32,880 nt of DNA from Spirochaetia bacterium. Lineage in GTDB: Bacteria > Spirochaetota > Spirochaetia > CADAEX01. This document shows, in pieces, positions 1,200-32,880 of the stretch. The notes under the pieces were generated by a model. The model was given only the letters and a program-made list of their open reading frames with translations, was not told where the DNA came from and made no database searches. Made by a program: the position numbers and the translations under genes. The first letter of the stretch is position 1. Each line of letters opens with the position of its first letter. The stretch is taken from positions 1-32,880 of the forward strand of contig JAGCGL010000106.1 of the NCBI GenBank assembly GCA_017649605.1. Reading direction: 5' to 3'.

Positions 1200-3187
1200 T
1201 GTTCCTCCACCATACGGTACAGTTTCTCGGGTGTCACAGGCATATCGGTAATAACTTTCCCTAAAGCCTGGCTTATGGCGTTGCAATAGGCCGAAGGAAT
1301 AATTCCAAAGGGTATGTCGCCGCAATAGTTGACCGAATCGGCTCCCTGGCTGTTTATAAGGCTTATGCTTATAGGAAGGTTTGCGAATTTCCAGGAAGAT
1401 GTCTCGTCCTCTCCCTGGCTGGTGCACCAGTAGAGGCTGTTGATGATGCGCTGCATCAGATAGTTTTTGGAAATATCCTCGGTAATGGTGTCACCTATGT
1501 CGAAGCAGGTCCAGATTCCCTTTATCGAAGGCTTATAGGTGGTTATGTCCACCGAGACCTCTACTATGGCAACACCCCATGCGGCATCGTTGATGTCGTA
1601 GGTAGGGTCGTAGCTCTCCTCCACAGTTATCGGAAGCGGTGTGTTCACCCGCAGCTCCTGGAGTTTCTTGCTGCATTTCTGAATAAGCTGGATAGGCCCT
1701 TTGGTCATCTCTCCAAGTATGTCGGGGATAGAATCCTCGTTTGTTGCAGTGTCGTGGGGCATCATGTGGATGCTTTCCTCATCCAGCTCGGTTATTTTAT
1801 GGAATACTTTTTTCCACAGGGTATATTCAAAGAAGTTCTGTGGAACAGTGGCGGTGGAGTAGTAGACCTGCCAGTTGTCGTCCAGGGTGAGCTTTCCTGT
1901 GAAAGGGGTGCAGATCTTCTTGCTGAAGCCGCTGGTGGCCTTATAGGTGGCAAATGCAAGCCCTATGCCCCGGAAGTAGCGGTCAGATACAATCCCCTTG
2001 AGGCGGTTCTGCTTCGCCAGCTCGTAGGAGGAGAACTTCCTCTGGAAATCCGAGTTCTTGGCCGCCTTTTCTATTACAATGTTTCCAGCCTTTGCCGAAG
2101 AGCTTACTATGTTGTTCAGCCGCCATTCGTCGGGGAACTGCTCGGTCAGGGATATTATGTTGTTCACATGGGTCTCTATACCCACCAGTATCTGGGTGAA
2201 TTTGTTTCCTGTTATGAAGAACATAGGAGGGTAGCTGGTCTTGACAAGCTGTTCCTTTATAAGAACCTTGTTCACCTTATATGGTCCCATTATGCTTATA
2301 AGGGCATTCTCCATTACCTCTTCGGCAAACAGCTGATATGCTCCTGCATTTATAGCCAGCTCCACAGTGCACTGGAGTATGCTGCCTGTATTTTTATCCA
2401 CCAGCGATGTATGCTTTATCTTGAAAGGGTACTGGGCGCCGATATACTGCTGCACCTCTTCTTTGCTCAGGATAAGGCGTACCGATTCTCCAGGGCGCAA
2501 AGCAATTACCGATGCAGCCAATGCCGCCAGGTAGGATGGAAACCAGAGTCTCCCTTCCATGGGGGATGCAATCTGGGGTACATTTACCTTTACAGCCTCC
2601 TCAGGTATATTCAGTATGCTGCTTACTGTGGACCTTACATGATGAGGCCACTGGGTGGAGGTGCATACAGATACAGAATCGGATTCTCTGTAGATTGCCA
2701 CCCCTATAGGGTCGTTGTAAACCGGCTTATAGAGGTCTCCAGAGGTGTTGGTCTCCACAGTAAGCACCTGCTCCGGGTCTATCTCCTTGTCATCATAGGT
2801 CCAGGTTTCGTTCCGTTCCTTTACAACCTGTCCTTCGGCAAACTCTCCGTCGAAGAAAAGAGGGGTGCTGGGCTGGTATTCAACCTGTATCATTCTTGAT
2901 ACAGACTCGGCATCCTCCTGGCTTCTGGCCGCAATTATAAATATTGGCTCTCCCTGATAGTTTACATATCCGTTGCAGAGCAGGGGAAACTTGCTTTCCA
3001 GAATATCAAACTCTTTCTGGGGCAGGTCACTGTAAGATATTATGCTGCAGCCTTCAGGAAGCTCTTCGGGCAGATGGATATTCTTTATCTCTCCGCAGAA
3101 GATAGATGCCCTGTAAAGGTAAAGATAGAGAGAATTCCTAAGGTTTAAGTCCCTTTCTAAAACATCATCCCACATTGTTTGCTCCAT
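1196..3187 (-). CDS. Molybdopterin-binding subunit homologue (XdhA/CoxL-like), degenerate
   Basis: About 663 residues, shorter than the usual 750-800 of xanthine dehydrogenase or CO-dehydrogenase large subunits. Family-like stretches can be followed: NGYVNYQGEPIFIIAA, then CTSTQWPHHVRSTVSSILNI, and a C-terminal segment ending in a PVTPEKL motif. The glycine-rich GGGFGGK motif is replaced by ASPMEGR. The RGFG-type loop is not visible. The C-terminal GVGE loop, which carries the catalytic Glu, appears as CGDIPFG. The start is ambiguous: ATG at 3187 has GGAAG upstream and ATG at 3175 has GGAG upstream; both overlap the end of the NusG-like gene. The stop overlaps the 2Fe-2S gene by 4 bases. Homology is clear, but a normal hydroxylase activity is doubtful. 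Confidence 0.8.
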   Translation of the reverse strand: MEQTMWDDVLERDLNLRNSLYLYLYRASIFCGEIKNIHLPEELPEGCSIISYSDLPQKEFDILESKFPLLCNGYVNYQGEPIFIIAARSQEDAESVSRMIQVEYQPSTPLFFDGEFAEGQVVKERNETWTYDDKEIDPEQVLTVETNTSGDLYKPVYNDPIGVAIYRESDSVSVCTSTQWPHHVRSTVSSILNIPEEAVKVNVPQIASPMEGRLWFPSYLAALAASVIALRPGESVRLILSKEEVQQYIGAQYPFKIKHTSLVDKNTGSILQCTVELAINAGAYQLFAEEVMENALISIMGPYKVNKVLIKEQLVKTSYPPMFFITGNKFTQILVGIETHVNNIISLTEQFPDEWRLNNIVSSSAKAGNIVIEKAAKNSDFQRKFSSYELAKQNRLKGIVSDRYFRGIGLAFATYKATSGFSKKICTPFTGKLTLDDNWQVYYSTATVPQNFFEYTLWKKVFHKITELDEESIHMMPHDTATNEDSIPDILGEMTKGPIQLIQKCSKKLQELRVNTPLPITVEESYDPTYDINDAAWGVAIVEVSVDITTYKPSIKGIWTCFDIGDTITEDISKNYLMQRIINSLYWCTSQGEDETSSWKFANLPISISLINSQGADSVNYCGDIPFGIIPSAYCNAISQALGKVITDMPVTPEKLYRMVEEQ

Positions 3188-3803: not shown

Positions 3804-5081
3804 ATGAAAGGTGCAGGTATCTTATTATTTTTGCTTTTTCTGCCTGTCTTGTGCCGGGCAGATATCGATTTAGAGGTCAAATCGGAATGCTCCTCCGAGA
3901 AAGTGATCAAAAGGCGCATTGATGTAAAAGGGGATGCCTTTGAGGTCTGCGAAGTCTCGGAAAAGAATGAGGAGCACGAGTTTGGCACTGTGTCGGTTGT
4001 CACACCGTGGTTCGGCTTCGGCCATCTCAAGACCCGGGGGCTTCTGACCGAGTCCATGAATCCCTGCGGCTATTCTCCCACATCGGAAGTCTTCTTTGAG
4101 CCTGCACGGCTGGTTATGGACAGGAGCATAGGGGAGAGCGGCAGCTATGGGGTTTTTGTAAAACCTATGGATGGCCTTACCTGTTTTACCCTCGGAAGCA
4201 GGGATGAGCAGTATATAAGGGGCATTCTGGCAAGCCTCTCCATAAATGACTTCACCTGCTCTCTGCTTCTTGAGAACAGCGATATCCAGGAATATTCAAG
4301 CCCCTCGTCATGGTACCTCTCAAAACCAGAGAACAGTGGTGGTGCTGAACTCTGGAACCTCCTTCTCAACTGCATTTACGAAAAGGATTGGTTTCTTATA
4401 TCACTTACAGCAGGCTCCTGCTTCGGGGAGTATGTGGAATGGGGCTTCTTCAACCGTGATTATGTCACTTTTTTCTACAGCAATCTGTTTGAGCTCAACT
4501 TCATGTTCTCCGGAACCACAGAGGAGTATCTTGCCCCGGGTGGCTCTGTTCCAGCTTCCCAGTATAAATATGGGGTCGATGCCTGGTTCCGTCCCTGGAG
4601 GCCCCTTAAGCTTTCCGGGGTCTGGTACACCGATTATAAGAGGCCGGACTATAAAGACCTTTACTACAACGACTTTGCAAGGCATCTTACCTTGAAGGCC
4701 GCACTCTATGCAGGAGACTTCACATTGTCGGCCTCCTATGCGGCTGACACAGTATTTGCCAACACCTCAGAGACCAAAGAGAAAAGGGATTATCAGGGGA
4801 GCATAGTCTACGATGCCGACTTTATAAGGCTTTCTCTCTCAAACCAGTGGTATATAGAGGATGACCGTTATTACCGTGATGTGTTGACTGCCGGCTGCAA
4901 GCTCTATTTCGAGTATCTTACTGCCAGCTTCACTTGGAAGCGGGATATAGGGGACAAGATAACCGATTCCTTCTCCGAGGATCTTGTTCTTAAGCTGGAT
5001 AACTTCAGACTTAACCTGAGCCATAAGAAAAATGGAGAAAAACCTTCTGTATTCACAGTTACGGGAATAATCAACTATTGA
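3804..5081 (+). CDS. Probable exported outer-membrane beta-barrel protein, family not recognised
   Basis: The protein has 425 residues. The N-terminus is a signal peptide: a Lys at position 2, a hydrophobic run (ILLFLLFLPVL), and a likely cleavage after Cys-Arg-Ala at about residue 19. A Cys lies in the region, but the preceding residues do not make a good lipobox. The mature part is rich in Tyr, Trp and Phe with many alternating polar/hydrophobic stretches, and the chain ends in Tyr. These are features of outer-membrane beta-barrels. No enzyme motif is seen. It is transcribed divergently from the nusG-like gene. The start context has no Shine-Dalgarno; a weak -10 (TAGATA, 3793-3798) lies 5 bases before the ATG, but a -35 at good spacing is lacking. 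The stop codon lies inside the -35 of the pyrBI promoter. Confidence 0.62.
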   Translation: MKGAGILLFLLFLPVLCRADIDLEVKSECSSEKVIKRRIDVKGDAFEVCEVSEKNEEHEFGTVSVVTPWFGFGHLKTRGLLTESMNPCGYSPTSEVFFEPARLVMDRSIGESGSYGVFVKPMDGLTCFTLGSRDEQYIRGILASLSINDFTCSLLLENSDIQEYSSPSSWYLSKPENSGGAELWNLLLNCIYEKDWFLISLTAGSCFGEYVEWGFFNRDYVTFFYSNLFELNFMFSGTTEEYLAPGGSVPASQYKYGVDAWFRPWRPLKLSGVWYTDYKRPDYKDLYYNDFARHLTLKAALYAGDFTLSASYAADTVFANTSETKEKRDYQGSIVYDADFIRLSLSNQWYIEDDRYYRDVLTAGCKLYFEYLTASFTWKRDIGDKITDSFSEDLVLKLDNFRLNLSHKKNGEKPSVFTVTGIINY

Positions 5082-5106
5082 ATTTTTAGCCCTTGCGTTC
5101 TATTAT
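5078..5106 (+). promoter_or_regulatory. Promoter of pyrBI, leaderless type
   Basis: TTGAAT (5078-5083), a 17-base spacer, TATTAT (5101-5106), then exactly 6 bases before the ATG at 5113. The expected start of transcription is the A of the ATG. No Shine-Dalgarno is present. The -35 contains the stop codon of the upstream gene. Confidence 0.65.
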
Positions 5107-5112
5107 GTAAAT

Positions 5113-6702
5113 ATGAACACATTCAAAGGCAGAAGTTTTACCGTAATAGATGATTTCTCTTTCGACGAGAAAATGTATCTGTTCCAGAAGGCAAGGGAGC
5201 TTAAGGGCTATATCAAATCTGATGACAAGGCTGGTATGGACAAGTTCAGGATAAACGATCCTGACTTCGGTATCTACGAAGTATTTATCGAAGACAGCAC
5301 CCGTACCAAGGAATCCTTCAAGAATGCTGCGGAATTCCACAGGGTCAAGCTTTCCAACCTGGATACCTCCCATTCTTCCATAAACAAGCAGGAGAGCTTT
5401 GCCGACACCTTCAACACCCTTTCAGGCTACTACAACAAAATCTTCATAGTGCGGAGCAGGCAGGAGGGACTCTGCCGCTACCTGGCCGAGAACGCCAGGA
5501 ACTATGCGCTCCGGAACGGCCTTTCCACCACGCCAGCCTTCATAAACGCAGGGGACGGCAAGCACGAGCATCCTACCCAGGAGCTTCTGGACGACTTCAC
5601 TTTCCTTGAGCATAACGGCTGGAGCACCGACTCTATGCATATCGCACTGGCCGGCGACCTTTACCACGGCCGCACAGTCCACTCCAAGGCGGACGGCCTC
5701 AAGATATTCAAGAATGTGACTGTAGACCTGATTGCGCCGCCAGAGCTGGCTATGCCTGAATTCTATGTGAACAAGATGCTTGCAAACGGCTTCAAGGTCA
5801 ACTTCTTCTCATCCATCGAGGAGTACATAAACTCCGGTAAAATGGCCAAGATCTGGTACTTCACCAGACCACAGCTTGAGCGGATGGGCGATGCTATCCT
5901 GAAGAAGCAGGACCAGCTGCGGGACAGCATTACATTCCAGCGTGAATATATGGACAAGCTGCCAGAGGGGACAATCTTCTACCATCCTCTGCCGCGGCAC
6001 AAGGTATATCCGTCCATCCCTACATTCCTTGACTCCACGCCGCTCAACGGCTGGGAGAAGCAGTCTGCAAACGGCATGATAGTCAGGATAATCCTCCTGG
6101 GCCTTATCGCCGGAAAGATTGGCGATGACTTCAAGGGAGAGGTCAAGATGCCTCAGAACCACGAGGATTCGGAGGATTTCATAGTCTCTCTGCCAATCCA
6201 CCCAAATACCCCTATAAAGGATTGCTCCGAGGGAGTAAAGCCTATTGCCGACGGCCTTGTCATCGACCATATCCTCAGGGGACACACCGAGACCGAGATA
6301 AGGGATCAGCTTATAAGGATTATCCGTACCCTGAAGCTCTATGGAAAGGGTGGCGAATGGGTGACAGCATCCCGGAAGGAGCCTGACCGGATGAAAGGAA
6401 TCATATTCCGCCCTGGTCACGGCGAGTTCGGTATCAAGAACCTTAAGCGTCTGGCTGCCCTGGCACCAGGATGCACTGTCAATATCATCAAGGACAAGCA
6501 TGTGATCAAGAAGCTCAGGCTCCTTATGCCACCTGCCATCTACAACTTTGACGATATCGAGTGCTCCAACCCCGACTGTATCTCCAACCACGAGCAGGGA
6601 GAGGGGATTCCGGCCGAGTTCTACCGCACAGACGAGGATAAGTTTATCTGCAAATACTGCGAGAAAATTCATACATTCATGGATATCTGGAAATGGAACT
6701 GA
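5113..6702 (+). CDS. pyrBI: Aspartate carbamoyltransferase, catalytic and regulatory chains fused (PyrB-PyrI)
   Basis: The protein has 529 residues, the sum of a PyrB catalytic chain (about 310) and a PyrI regulatory chain (about 150). It makes carbamoyl-aspartate from carbamoyl phosphate and aspartate in pyrimidine synthesis. The carbamoyl-phosphate loop STRTKESF is at residues 62-69, HPTQ at 153-156 and HPLPR at 291-295. The PyrI part follows from about residue 345 and ends in a zinc site with Cys 484, 489, 513 and 516 (C-x4-C ... C-x2-C). Single-chain PyrB-PyrI fusions are known, for example in Thermotoga and some spirochaetes. The gene is first of an operon with a HAD phosphatase and rarA. 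The start is supported by the precisely spaced promoter, without a Shine-Dalgarno. Confidence 0.95.
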   Translation: MNTFKGRSFTVIDDFSFDEKMYLFQKARELKGYIKSDDKAGMDKFRINDPDFGIYEVFIEDSTRTKESFKNAAEFHRVKLSNLDTSHSSINKQESFADTFNTLSGYYNKIFIVRSRQEGLCRYLAENARNYALRNGLSTTPAFINAGDGKHEHPTQELLDDFTFLEHNGWSTDSMHIALAGDLYHGRTVHSKADGLKIFKNVTVDLIAPPELAMPEFYVNKMLANGFKVNFFSSIEEYINSGKMAKIWYFTRPQLERMGDAILKKQDQLRDSITFQREYMDKLPEGTIFYHPLPRHKVYPSIPTFLDSTPLNGWEKQSANGMIVRIILLGLIAGKIGDDFKGEVKMPQNHEDSEDFIVSLPIHPNTPIKDCSEGVKPIADGLVIDHILRGHTETEIRDQLIRIIRTLKLYGKGGEWVTASRKEPDRMKGIIFRPGHGEFGIKNLKRLAALAPGCTVNIIKDKHVIKKLRLLMPPAIYNFDDIECSNPDCISNHEQGEGIPAEFYRTDEDKFICKYCEKIHTFMDIWKWN

Positions 6703-29456: not shown

Positions 29457-30158
29457 ATGCATTTCGGATTCAATGAGATGATGTGGTTCGCAGTTCTTAT
29501 CGTGAACTTCGTCATTGTACTGGCTGTCTACCGGTTCATGGGAAAGACAGGTCTTTTCGTCTGGATGGCAATCGCCAGCATCCTTGCAAATATCCAGGTA
29601 CTCAAGCTGGTGGAATTCTTCGGCTGGAACATAACACTGGGCAATGTGCTCTACGGTACATCGTTCCTTGCCACCGACATAATATCGGAGAATTATTCCA
29701 AGGAGCTTGCCCATAAATCGGTGTGGGTGGGGTTCTTCGCCATGATCTCCATGATCATACTCATGACACTTTCCTGCCTCTTCATCCCGGCTGCAGATGA
29801 CTTCATATCAGAGCCGATGAAGGCCATATTTACAGTTATTCCGCGTGTCTCCTTCGCAAGCCTGGTGGCATACCTCATATCCCAGAACCACGATGTCTGG
29901 GCATACCACTTCTGGATGGAGAAGTTCCCTGAAACAAAGTTCATCTTCATCAGGAACAACCTGAGCACCATGATAAGCCAGCTTATAGACAGCGCGATAT
30001 TCACCATAATTGCGTTCGCAGGGATGTATCCGGTCGGAGTTCTGGTGCAGATTGTCATTTCCACATACCTTCTCAAGTGGCTGGTTGCATTCTTCGACAC
30101 AGGATGCGTCTACATCGCGGCCCACTGGTTCAAGACAGGAAAAGTCAAGGAGATGTGA
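29457..30158 (+). CDS. yhhQ: Queuosine precursor transporter (YhhQ/DUF165 family)
   Basis: The protein has 233 residues with about six membrane helices (WFAVLIVNFVIVLAVYRFM, then MAIASILANIQVLKLV, VGFFAMISMIILMTLSCLF, and others). ATDIISENY corresponds to the family motif TDIxxExYG, and RNNLSTMISQLIDS to the conserved RNxxSTxxSQxxD segment. Family members import queuine or preQ0/preQ1 for queuosine-modified tRNA. No queuosine synthesis gene is in the window, which would fit a salvaging organism. It overlaps the methyltransferase gene by 1 base (TGATG). Confidence 0.9.
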   Translation: MHFGFNEMMWFAVLIVNFVIVLAVYRFMGKTGLFVWMAIASILANIQVLKLVEFFGWNITLGNVLYGTSFLATDIISENYSKELAHKSVWVGFFAMISMIILMTLSCLFIPAADDFISEPMKAIFTVIPRVSFASLVAYLISQNHDVWAYHFWMEKFPETKFIFIRNNLSTMISQLIDSAIFTIIAFAGMYPVGVLVQIVISTYLLKWLVAFFDTGCVYIAAHWFKTGKVKEM

Positions 30159-30870: not shown

Positions 30871-31131
30871 ATGAAGATTGACAAATCAAAGCTCACTGCC
30901 GAAATGATCAAGAAGGCAAAGGATTGCAAGACCCCGGAGGAGCTTGTTGAGCTGGCAAAGAATGCCGGTTTAGAGCTTACTGTGCCTGAGGCAGAGTCAT
31001 ATCTGGCAGAGCTTGAGGATTTTGAGCTTGACAGCAAAGCCCTGGATAAGATAGCAGGCGGTGGATCCTGTTATATGGATTGCGGTGGCAAGTGCTGGTA
31101 CGACAGTACCCACTGTTCAGATCTATACTGA
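30871..31131 (+). CDS. Nif11-type leader RiPP precursor peptide 1
   Basis: The peptide has 86 residues. Residues 1-64 are a Nif11-like leader: a Lys-rich start (MKIDKSKLTAEM), an amphipathic helix with TPEELVELAKNAGLEL, PEAESYLAELE, then ELDSKALDKIAGG. The Gly-Gly at 63-64 is the expected cleavage site of a bifunctional peptidase-exporter. The core (residues 65-86, GSCYMDCGGKCWYDSTHCSD-LY) has four Cys (67, 71, 75, 82), one Ser and one Thr pair available for modification. The next precursor aligns without gaps through the Gly-Gly, but its core is unrelated. No modifying enzyme or transporter is in the window. Strong promoter and Shine-Dalgarno. Confidence 0.9.
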   Translation: MKIDKSKLTAEMIKKAKDCKTPEELVELAKNAGLELTVPEAESYLAELEDFELDSKALDKIAGGGSCYMDCGGKCWYDSTHCSDLY

Positions 31132-31145
31132 AAAATTCTCAAAAA

Positions 31146-31185
31146 TTGTAAAATAGACTTTACAAAAATTACATGATATTGTAAA
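31146..31185. promoter_or_regulatory. Possible operator: three TTGTAAA half-sites over the ATPase promoter
   Basis: TTGTAAA (31146-31152), TTTACAA (31159-31165) and TTGTAAA (31179-31185). The first two form a perfect 7-base inverted repeat with a 6-base loop. The second and third form another, with a 13-base spacer, which spans the -35 and -10 of the ATPase promoter. The loop-type pair could also be a weak RNA hairpin, but no T run follows. In A/T-rich DNA the -35 itself (TTTACA) accounts for part of the match. Confidence 0.4.
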
Positions 31186-31187
31186 CT
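31159..31187 (+). promoter_or_regulatory. Promoter of the AAA_14/DUF4143-type ATPase gene, leaderless
   Basis: TTTACA (31159-31164), a 17-base spacer, TAAACT (31182-31187), then exactly 6 bases before the GTG at 31194. It has the same geometry as the pyrBI, mnmA, punA and lipoprotein promoters and thereby supports the GTG start. Confidence 0.62.
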
Positions 31188-31193
31188 CAAATT

Positions 31194-32363
31194 GTGGAAA
31201 GGTTATTTGAGCATTACAGAAATAAATTAGCATTCACCAAGACAGCCTTTGTCAGGAGCCTGGAGCAGAACATCGACTGGAAATCCAGCCTCATCGGCAT
31301 ACGGGGGCCCAGAGGGGTCGGCAAGTCCAACCTCATGCTCCAGCATATCAAGAAGGCCTTCAAGGAAGATTACAGCAGGGCACTCTATGCCAGCCTGGAC
31401 GACCTTTATTTCGCTGACAATTCACTTTCCCACCTTGCGGAGCAGTTCACCCGGCGGGGTGGAACCCATCTTTTCCTGGACGAGGTCCATAAGTATCCCA
31501 AGTGGGATCAGGCTGTGAAAAGTCTCCATGACAACTTCCCGGGACTCTCCATTGTATATGCCGGATCATCTCTCCTTGAGAATCAGGCCCATACCTATGA
31601 TATGCAGGGCCTTTCCTTCAGGGAATACCTTGCTTTCAACACCAACAGGGAATACCCCATATTCTCCCTTGAGGATATCCTGACCCGCACCGAGGAGATC
31701 TCTGCAGAGCTTGCCTCCGAGATAAAGCCCTTCAAATATTTCGACAATTACCTCAGGATGGGCTATTATCCCTTCTTCATACTGGGAGAGAAGAACTACT
31801 TGAGCCGTATGAATGAGACCATCAACATGATCCTGGATATAGAGCTTCCTATCCTGCGTAATATGGAAACATCTTCCATCCCCAAGATACGCAAGCTGCT
31901 GGCCGTCATAAGCAAGGCTTCCCCATGCGTGCCCAATGTGGCCTCCCTTGCTTCTCATATAGGAGTTGCCCGGCAGACACTGCTCTCTTATTTAAAGCAC
32001 CTGGAGGAGGGAAACCTTATAGTGCTGCTCTATAAAGGGGCGCGGGGAACCGGATCTCTTGTAAAGCCCGACAGGCTGTACCTTGAGAACTCCAACCTTA
32101 TGCATGACCTGATGGACTATGAGGCGGCACCTTCCGATTCCCTTGAGACATTTGTTCTGAACCAGCTGAAGAAGGACCATGATATAAAGCTGACTGCTTC
32201 CGGGGATTTCCTGGTTGATGACCGGCACACATTCAAGATGTGCAGCGGTAACAGGAAGCAGAAGCAGGCAAAGGATGAGGGCAATTCTTATATAATTGCC
32301 GATGACATTGAGATCGGCTCAGGCCGTCTTATACCGGTCTGGCTTTTAGGATTTTTATATTAA
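31194..32363 (+). CDS. AAA_14/DUF4143-type ATPase within the Nif11 precursor array
   Basis: The protein has 389 residues from a GTG start. Walker A GPRGVGKS is at 38-45, Walker B LFLDEVHKYPKW starts at 93, and sensor-1-like YAGSS is at 122-126. The SFREYLAF and YLRMGYYPFF segments and the winged-helix part (VASLASHIGVARQTLLSYLKHLEEGNLI) are typical of the AAA_14-DUF4143 family. The C-terminal nuclease-like part has FKMCSGNRKQKQ where PD-(D/E)xK relatives have an acidic residue, so it is probably not catalytic. Function of the family is unknown. It lies between two Nif11 precursor genes, 12 bases before the second, and reads into it. A dedicated role in RiPP production, immunity or regulation is speculation. 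Confidence 0.85.
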   Translation: MERLFEHYRNKLAFTKTAFVRSLEQNIDWKSSLIGIRGPRGVGKSNLMLQHIKKAFKEDYSRALYASLDDLYFADNSLSHLAEQFTRRGGTHLFLDEVHKYPKWDQAVKSLHDNFPGLSIVYAGSSLLENQAHTYDMQGLSFREYLAFNTNREYPIFSLEDILTRTEEISAELASEIKPFKYFDNYLRMGYYPFFILGEKNYLSRMNETINMILDIELPILRNMETSSIPKIRKLLAVISKASPCVPNVASLASHIGVARQTLLSYLKHLEEGNLIVLLYKGARGTGSLVKPDRLYLENSNLMHDLMDYEAAPSDSLETFVLNQLKKDHDIKLTASGDFLVDDRHTFKMCSGNRKQKQAKDEGNSYIIADDIEIGSGRLIPVWLLGFLY

Positions 32364-32375
32364 TAGGAGGTAAGT

Positions 32376-32624
32376 ATGCCAATCGACAAGATAAAACTTA
32401 CAAATGCAATGCTTATAAAAGCAGCAAATTGCGAGACTGCCGACGAACTGGTAGCACTTGCAAGGACAGAAGGAATGGAGATCACAAAGGCCGAGGCCGA
32501 GGCTTACCTTTCAGAGCTTGATAATGTTGAGCTTGACAGCAAGGCTTTGGAAAAGGTGGCTGGTGGCTATAATCTATGCGAGAATTATGGTCAGGCATGC
32601 CCGAGTTATATAAATGTAGGATGA
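32376..32624 (+). CDS. Nif11-type leader RiPP precursor peptide 2
   Basis: The peptide has 82 residues. The leader (1-64) matches precursor 1 in length and plan: MPIDKIKLTNAM, TADELVALARTEGMEITKAE, AEAYLSELDN, then ELDSKALEKVAGG with Gly-Gly at 63-64. The core of 18 residues (YNLCENYGQACPSYINVG) has two Cys (68, 75) and does not resemble the core of precursor 1. A near-perfect Shine-Dalgarno (TAGGAGGT) stands 6 bases before the ATG. It is probably transcribed with the ATPase. Confidence 0.9.
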   Translation: MPIDKIKLTNAMLIKAANCETADELVALARTEGMEITKAEAEAYLSELDNVELDSKALEKVAGGYNLCENYGQACPSYINVG

Positions 32625-32628
32625 TTAT

Positions 32629-32721
32629 ATGCCAATAGATAAGACAAAGTTGACAAAAGCGATGCTGAATGAAGCAGCTATGTTCCAGGCTGAGGAGCCT
32701 AGCTCAAAAAAAATATATTAA
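32629..32721 (+). pseudogene. Truncated Nif11 precursor gene
   Basis: The frame encodes 30 residues. The first 19 or so (MPIDKTKLTKAMLNEAAMFQ) match the leader start of the neighbouring precursors, then the sequence departs (AEEPSSKKIY) and stops. The leader helix, the Gly-Gly site and any core are missing. An AGGA lies 7 bases before the ATG, so it may still be translated. It is best read as a remnant of a precursor gene after deletion; a functional micropeptide cannot be excluded. Confidence 0.72.
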
Positions 32722-32739
32722 AGCTTAAAGGAAATACTT

Positions 32740-32880
32740 ATGCCAATTGATAAGACAAAAATGACAAAAGAGATGCTTGCAAAAGCAGCAATGTGTCAAA
32801 CTGCTGATGATCTGATTGCCCTGGCAAAAGATAACGGCATTGACATTACAAGGGAAGAGGCCGAGTCATACCTGGCAGAG
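32740..32880 (+). CDS. Nif11-type leader RiPP precursor peptide, cut by the window end
   Basis: Forty-seven codons are visible and the frame is open at the last base. MPIDKTKMTKEML, then CQTADDLIALAKDNGIDITREEAESYLAE, aligns without gaps to residues 1-47 of precursors 1 and 2. AAGGA stands about 8 bases before the ATG. The Gly-Gly site and core lie beyond the window. Confidence 0.88.
   Translation, partial: MPIDKTKMTKEMLAKAAMCQTADDLIALAKDNGIDITREEAESYLAE

Follow-up and report, generated by a model that had tools for sequence, protein, structure and literature searches.

The DNA analysed here (the window; 32,880 nucleotides, the whole of contig C132 in the 1.79-Mb draft genome G000) comes from a Spirochaetia bacterium and carries at its right end an array of genes for short peptides with a Nif11-type leader, which probably forms part of a peptide system dispersed through the genome and the genus. 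An initial annotation of the sequence had described two complete precursor genes and two gene parts in a spirochaete-like genome. The genus-mates place this genome among rumen Spirochaetia, the open reading frames (ORFs) are as described, with Gly63-Gly64 and an ELDSKAL segment in both complete genes, and the two gene parts are equally real, since the remnant recurs on contig C119 of the same genome and the gene cut by the contig end is complete there (Table 1).

The core of precursor 1 comprises 22 residues with four cysteines and that of precursor 2 comprises 18 residues with two, the latter with orthologous cores in the relatives G003 and G006; AGAGGGGG and AGGAGG, respectively, stand upstream of the two starts. 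In a scan of 18,950 families, both complete genes match the Nif11-type leader profile TIGR03798 at E ~4e-6, although their 26.8-27.0 bits lie under the curated cut-off of 32.3 bits, which is reached by four G000 genes, including precursor 3 as completed on C119 (33.5 bits; core KSYKCPGEVCTEHCHLNQWYE). Because of this E-value in so broad a scan, and because the profile matches 24 places on six contigs of G000, the leader match is far from chance.

Table 1. Coordinates of the array, its left flank and related genes in G000 and its relatives (C132 is the window).
Feature	Contig	Position	Strand	Details
Integral membrane protein, conserved left flank	C132	29457..30158	+	ORF; syntenic in G002, G003, G006
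O-methyltransferase gene, left boundary of array	C132	30158..30787	+	PF01596 E 8.9e-31; adjoins 29457-30158
Nif11-leader precursor 1	C132	30871..31131	+	86 aa, Gly63-Gly64; ORF; TIGR03798 E 3.8e-6, 27.0 bits
Precursor 1 leader	C132	30871-31062	+	64 aa, ends in IAGG
Precursor 1 core	C132	31063-31128	+	GSCYMDCGGKCWYDSTHCSDLY
AAA_14/DUF4143-type ATPase, within array	C132	31194..32363	+	PF13173 E 3.7e-21
Nif11-leader precursor 2	C132	32376..32624	+	82 aa, Gly63-Gly64; ORF; TIGR03798 E 4.5e-6, 26.8 bits
Precursor 2 leader	C132	32376-32567	+	ends in VAGG
Precursor 2 core	C132	32568-32621	+	YNLCENYGQACPSYINVG
Degenerate precursor remnant	C132	32629..32721	+	30 aa; ORF; 3' part matched by copy in C119 27288-27443
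Nif11-leader precursor 3, cut by contig end	C132	32740..32880	+	complete on C119 27633-27890
Exporter operon	C38	1102-7172		bits (cut-off): TIGR03797 759.9 (709.4); TIGR03796 996.6 (853.3); TIGR03794 285.6 (156.2)
B12-binding radical-SAM gene	C38	7233-9140		TIGR03975 461.9 bits (cut-off 281.85)
SPASM radical-SAM gene	C32	2955-4472		adjoins precursors
SPASM radical-SAM gene	C125	29491-31011		adjoins precursors
Nif11 leader - core - Hint fusion	C32 (L026)	1914-2708		ten more in G002, G003, G004, G006
DUF7005 proteins	C32 (L026)	769-1587; 4476-5342		among precursors
Gene starting CEYLIVGGGLAGCSLGYLL	G002 C5; G003 C65; G006 C109	4072-5085; 4679-5692; 2689-3702		inside Nif11 arrays

The array locus and its continuation

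According to the initial annotation, this was a multi-precursor locus with its enzymes past the right edge or elsewhere in the genome. The right end of C132 equals the reversed end of C119 over exactly 141 bases, and the joined array holds nine complete precursors and two remnants with the ATPase gene inside, in keeping with the multi-precursor plan. Although identical contig ends also mark assembly branches, the join is well supported, because in addition to the overlap the flanks are shared with the relative G002, whose unbroken 228-kb contig C4 covers the syntenic locus in the order hisB-like, membrane-protein, O-methyltransferase and carboxylesterase-like genes, Nif11 array, 130-aa protein, STAS-domain-like gene and mutL; in G000, C132 shows this left flank, while C119 has mutL and the 130-aa protein. 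Neither the joined locus nor the syntenic part of the G002 contig contains a maturase or exporter, only housekeeping-type genes lying alongside. The join and this synteny thus speak against enzymes just past the right edge, whereas a location elsewhere is supported by exporter and candidate maturase genes on contigs C38, C32 and C125.

In the left flank, the membrane protein, which we take to be a YhhQ/queuosine-precursor-type transporter, is encoded by a gene with synonymous differences (pS) of 0.43-0.59 to G002, G003 and G006. The O-methyltransferase gene keeps this position in relatives, whether they have precursor 1 or not; its presence where precursor 1 is absent and its ordinary divergence led to its rejection as a tailoring enzyme, and it probably stands outside the peptide system. 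The ATPase within the array is not among known RiPP enzymes (RiPP, ribosomally synthesised and post-translationally modified peptide), and in three species only 0-4 bp separate its gene from a precursor.

The remnant and the start of the next gene also form a near-exact repeat (window 32629-32790 and C119 27039-27443), which is likely a tandem duplication and possibly the cause of the contig break. Elsewhere on C119 (27288-27443 and 27370-27615), the core GAKARLFGCSGVY, found again in G004 and G006, is encoded where the end of a precursor overlaps a damaged leader copy in another frame.

Exporter and candidate maturation enzymes in the genome and genus

Among the enzyme and exporter types that the initial annotation had suggested, radical S-adenosylmethionine (radical-SAM) enzymes and a C39 exporter were found. 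The C38 operon combines TIGR03794, TIGR03796 and TIGR03797, all above their curated cut-offs, and by these profiles is an NHLM exporter made up of a C39-peptidase ATP-binding cassette (ABC) protein, a second ABC protein and an HlyD-like adaptor; the one C39 peptidase of G000 lies on this contig. Beside the operon stands a B12-binding radical-SAM gene whose product exceeds the profile cut-off of the rSAM_ocin_1 RiPP C-methyltransferase family (TIGR03975). Maturases of the LanM and YcaO types were not found: LANC_like had no match in G000 (~93% complete, and the one genome searched for LanC), and YcaO had none in the seven genomes of the genus. Given these negatives, radical-SAM chemistry is the likely maturation class.

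Two further radical-SAM genes, with SPASM domains, adjoin precursors on C32 and C125; cores nearby include CYQVDGC and CYMIDGC or CYAVDGC, and the enzymes carry CNFRCPYC. They share their radical-SAM and SPASM architecture and a position next to peptide precursors with the SPASM maturases TIGR04463, CefB (NF038107), PapB (NF047865) and TIGR04064, but fall far short of the threshold in each NCBIfam maturase family compared: a G000 enzyme scores 148.8 bits against 525 for TIGR04463, and the two score 58.5 and 64.8 against 518.7 for the Nif11 radical-SAM maturase TIGR04064 and 98.1 and 108.6 against 340 for the ranthipeptide maturase PapB. Assignment to a known maturase family was rejected on this ground. 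Several cores contain Cys-X3-Asp, which is kept as a ranthipeptide lead only.

The distribution of these components was compared with that of the precursors. Nif11 matches number 14-29 per genome in six of the seven members of this rumen genus, whereas only one of 53 relatives outside the genus has any match, and that a weak one. All six Nif11-bearing members contain TIGR03797 above cut-off and SPASM homologues (50-97% identity to the C125 enzyme), five contain TIGR03794 above cut-off (not G006; 0/53 outside the genus) and four TIGR03975. The seventh genome is without Nif11, without TIGR03797 above cut-off and without a SPASM homologue. This co-occurrence ties the exporter and the candidate maturases to the precursors.

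Other genes also recur among the precursors. The two DUF7005 proteins on C32 carry HEXXH motifs (HECTH or HECAH), the second of them starts with a truncated Nif11 leader, and homologues stand beside precursors in five genomes. The gene starting CEYLIVGGGLAGCSLGYLL, presumably a flavin-type nucleotide-binding motif, differs synonymously by only 0.03-0.05 across three species and may encode a tailoring enzyme.

Composition, exchange and fusion of the cores

The cores were compared in 127 precursors with leader, GG (or AG) site and core, taken from fetched loci and comprising 104 distinct cores of 7-28 residues. Among the precursors of one genome, leader identity is 60-65% (about 61%) and core identity 0.12-0.14, against 0.10-0.12 for shuffled cores. 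For 83 cores, clustered so as to share less than 60% identity, residue statistics nevertheless give 40 C[YW] pairs against 13.4 expected, 28 CxxxC against 10.1, 12 C[YW]xxC against 0.97 and no CC against 12.3. The cores are non-random and share a Cys-Tyr/Trp...Cys grammar (C-[YW] / CxxxC) across the genus, which occurs twice in window core 1; their earlier description as unrelated therefore holds for the window pair but is incomplete. The idea of spliceotides with an XYG motif (cores such as SSYSDGYGDEP) is a lead only, Tyr-Gly lying outside the most enriched pairs.

Core clusters common to at least two species number 23 of 88. In matched pairs, which were picked for similar cores, hold few synonymous sites per core and are not independent within a cluster, the pooled synonymous difference is 0.039 for cores against 0.228 for the leaders attached to them, and further genes in the vicinity of Nif11 loci average 0.35-0.61 between species; the low core value is taken to indicate that exchange and recombination were recent and is not used as a rate. 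Furthermore, several pairs join unrelated leader starts to identical cores and 3' flanks. At the window locus, pS for the ATPase gene is 0.09 to G003 and G006 as against 0.43-0.52 for flanking genes, and the block from the ATPase gene onward was therefore probably exchanged recently. Spread by phage was considered and rejected, as precursor 2 had no match in phage records and the SPASM enzyme none in viral contigs.

Beyond the genus, Nif11 precursors of Selenomonad genomes have cores almost identical to those found here, but differ in their leaders. The Selenomonad core VKTCYMVDGCAFKCGTLKDC matches the core IKTCYMIDGCAFKCGTLKDC on the spirochaete side with 83% identity in core DNA and 58% in leader DNA, and the core ICYMEDCPKHTM is identical in protein between Selenomonad and spirochaete with 72% identity in DNA. 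The changes in core DNA are mostly synonymous and the peptide is retained, which points to selection on the peptide. The near-unchanged recurrence of some cores in rumen bacteria of another phylum (Negativicutes) suggests a conserved and exchanged peptide repertoire.

In a separate precursor type, found in 11 of the 127, the core is followed immediately by a Hint domain; in seven of the 11 a second, truncated Nif11 stretch ends the protein, and the in-frame TAG of the G000 fusion is the stop ending that stretch. The Hint genes of the relatives come from Spirochaetia or Spirochaetaceae metagenome-assembled genomes, several of them from rumen or reticulum (sheep, goat, water buffalo). The same architecture occurs at three rumen Negativicutes loci (L169, L170, L171), two of which have a core homologous to a spirochaete one (SCYTNMTCDGNECNPAHPH versus SCYTQTSCDNNECNPAHPK), and a very large filamentous adhesin encoded on a plasmid of Selenomonas ruminantium terminates in a Hint domain that shares 68% identity with those of the fusions (L175; NC_017078.1 3001-3423). 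With hedgehog proteins, inteins and bacterial intein-like (BIL) domains the fused domain shares PF13403 (35.8 bits against a cut-off of 28.4), the first Cys, which is invariant in the aligned sequences, and the fold, a structural model (mean predicted local distance difference test score, pLDDT, 61) matching gp41-1 intein, a BIL domain and hedgehog in Foldseek; here, in contrast, it follows a RiPP core. At the block-B position, which was placed by eye against the canonical motif, all 11 aligned sequences have TESQ or TGSQ, with Gln for the usual catalytic His, and the final His-Asn is absent. Since the block-B His reads as Gln, self-processing activity is uncertain. No paper joining 'Nif11' and 'Hint domain' was found in the literature collection searched. 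We regard as possible, though less likely than not, the combined reading that the two rumen phyla share and exchange a conserved set of Nif11-leader cores and that the Hint domain of the fused branch activates or releases the core C-terminus, with macrocyclisation or attachment of the core to the cell envelope as example roles; if active, such precursors would offer a new route for processing the C-terminus of a RiPP.

Interpretation and relation to known peptide systems

Altogether, we place at about 0.8 the probability that the window locus belongs to a Nif11-leader peptide system that is scattered over the genome, extends through the genus and uses radical-SAM enzymes and an NHLM exporter. 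Many precursors join a common 64-residue leader ending in GG to unrelated cores, and the common leader would let shared enzymes act on many of them: a SPASM enzyme would modify a subset of cores at Cys and aromatic residues, some cores may be C-methylated, and the C39 peptidase would cut after GG, with export of the peptide to follow. Tandem duplication, recombination between leader and core and interspecies transfer would diversify the arrays. For the products, a role between cells (competition or signalling) is most likely, given that individual cores stay near-unchanged across species, and even phyla, while leaders diverge.

Several points weigh against this interpretation. Some cores have no Cys, the two complete window genes fall below the curated cut-offs of both TIGR03798 and Pfam Nif11, TIGR03975 passes in only four of the six Nif11-bearing genomes, and the SPASM enzymes score far under all NCBIfam maturase cut-offs compared, so that their role is a predicted one. 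Moreover, because the window's own locus has no maturase, modification of its cores can only be inferred. Finally, contamination of the draft genome G000 is estimated at 6.4%, and C38 and C32 were assigned to it by binning, an assignment backed by homologues in relatives.

The strongest competing explanation, which we hold possible but less than even, is that most peptides, those of the window included, remain unmodified: the C39 exporter would cut and secrete them, CxxxC would form disulphides, and radical-SAM enzymes would serve only adjacent precursors. The array without a maturase, the 23 complete precursors facing two SPASM genes in G000, a CxxxC spacing that fits a simple disulphide, and an exporter more constant across the genus than TIGR03975 all agree with it. 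However, distant and adjacent precursors have similar leaders, a likeness that binding by common enzymes would predict, the C[YW] bias exceeds what disulphides alone explain, and SPASM homologues are retained in every Nif11-bearing genome.

Far less probable is a decaying repeat family without present function, in which duplicated leader ORFs end in random 3' sequence. The degenerate remnant is present twice, cores look random within one genome, and some may come from a frameshift near a neighbouring leader, whereas identical or near-identical cores across species and phyla despite synonymous change, the non-random core composition and the co-occurrence of precursors with the exporter all argue for function. 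Least probable are prochlorosin-like lanthipeptides or TOMM-like azole peptides, made with LanM or YcaO, which the leader family and multi-precursor plan recall (PMC2887384; PMC10783134) and for which a LanM missed in the incomplete genome is conceivable, but which were rejected for want of LanC in G000 and of YcaO in the genus.

If the proposed radical-SAM and NHLM system is correct, an uncultured rumen spirochaete genus would be rich in leader-directed peptides made with radical-SAM instead of lanthipeptide or azole enzymes, and over a hundred natural leader/core pairs would be available for probing enzyme tolerance. Additionally, cores retained across phyla make the function of such peptide families testable.

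Among known systems, the closest are the Nif11-derived peptides (N11P, TIGR03798) that Haft et al. (2010; PMC2887384) described along with the exporter families TIGR03794/03796/03797 (NHLM/NHLP), which share the leader family, the GG site, large paralogous sets and the three exporter families, and from which the present system differs in its rumen spirochaete host, in radical-SAM enzymes in place of LanM-like or YcaO ones (not found here) and in Hint-fused precursors. The prochlorosins and ProcM of marine picocyanobacteria (PMC10783134) likewise combine scattered precursors, a conserved leader and diverse cores, with maturation in trans, which is presumed here; in contrast to them, no lanthipeptide synthetase was found in G000. 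The Lah cluster of Lachnospiraceae C6A11, whose transporter LahT has a substrate-tolerant C39 peptidase, also has nine Nif11-leader precursors with diverse cores, but is a single lanthipeptide cluster (PMC6363468), whereas the genes described here are scattered and accompanied by radical-SAM enzymes. On these likenesses, the system appears to belong with the Nif11/NHLM peptides (PMC2887384), from which its host, its enzyme class and its Hint-fused precursor type set it apart.
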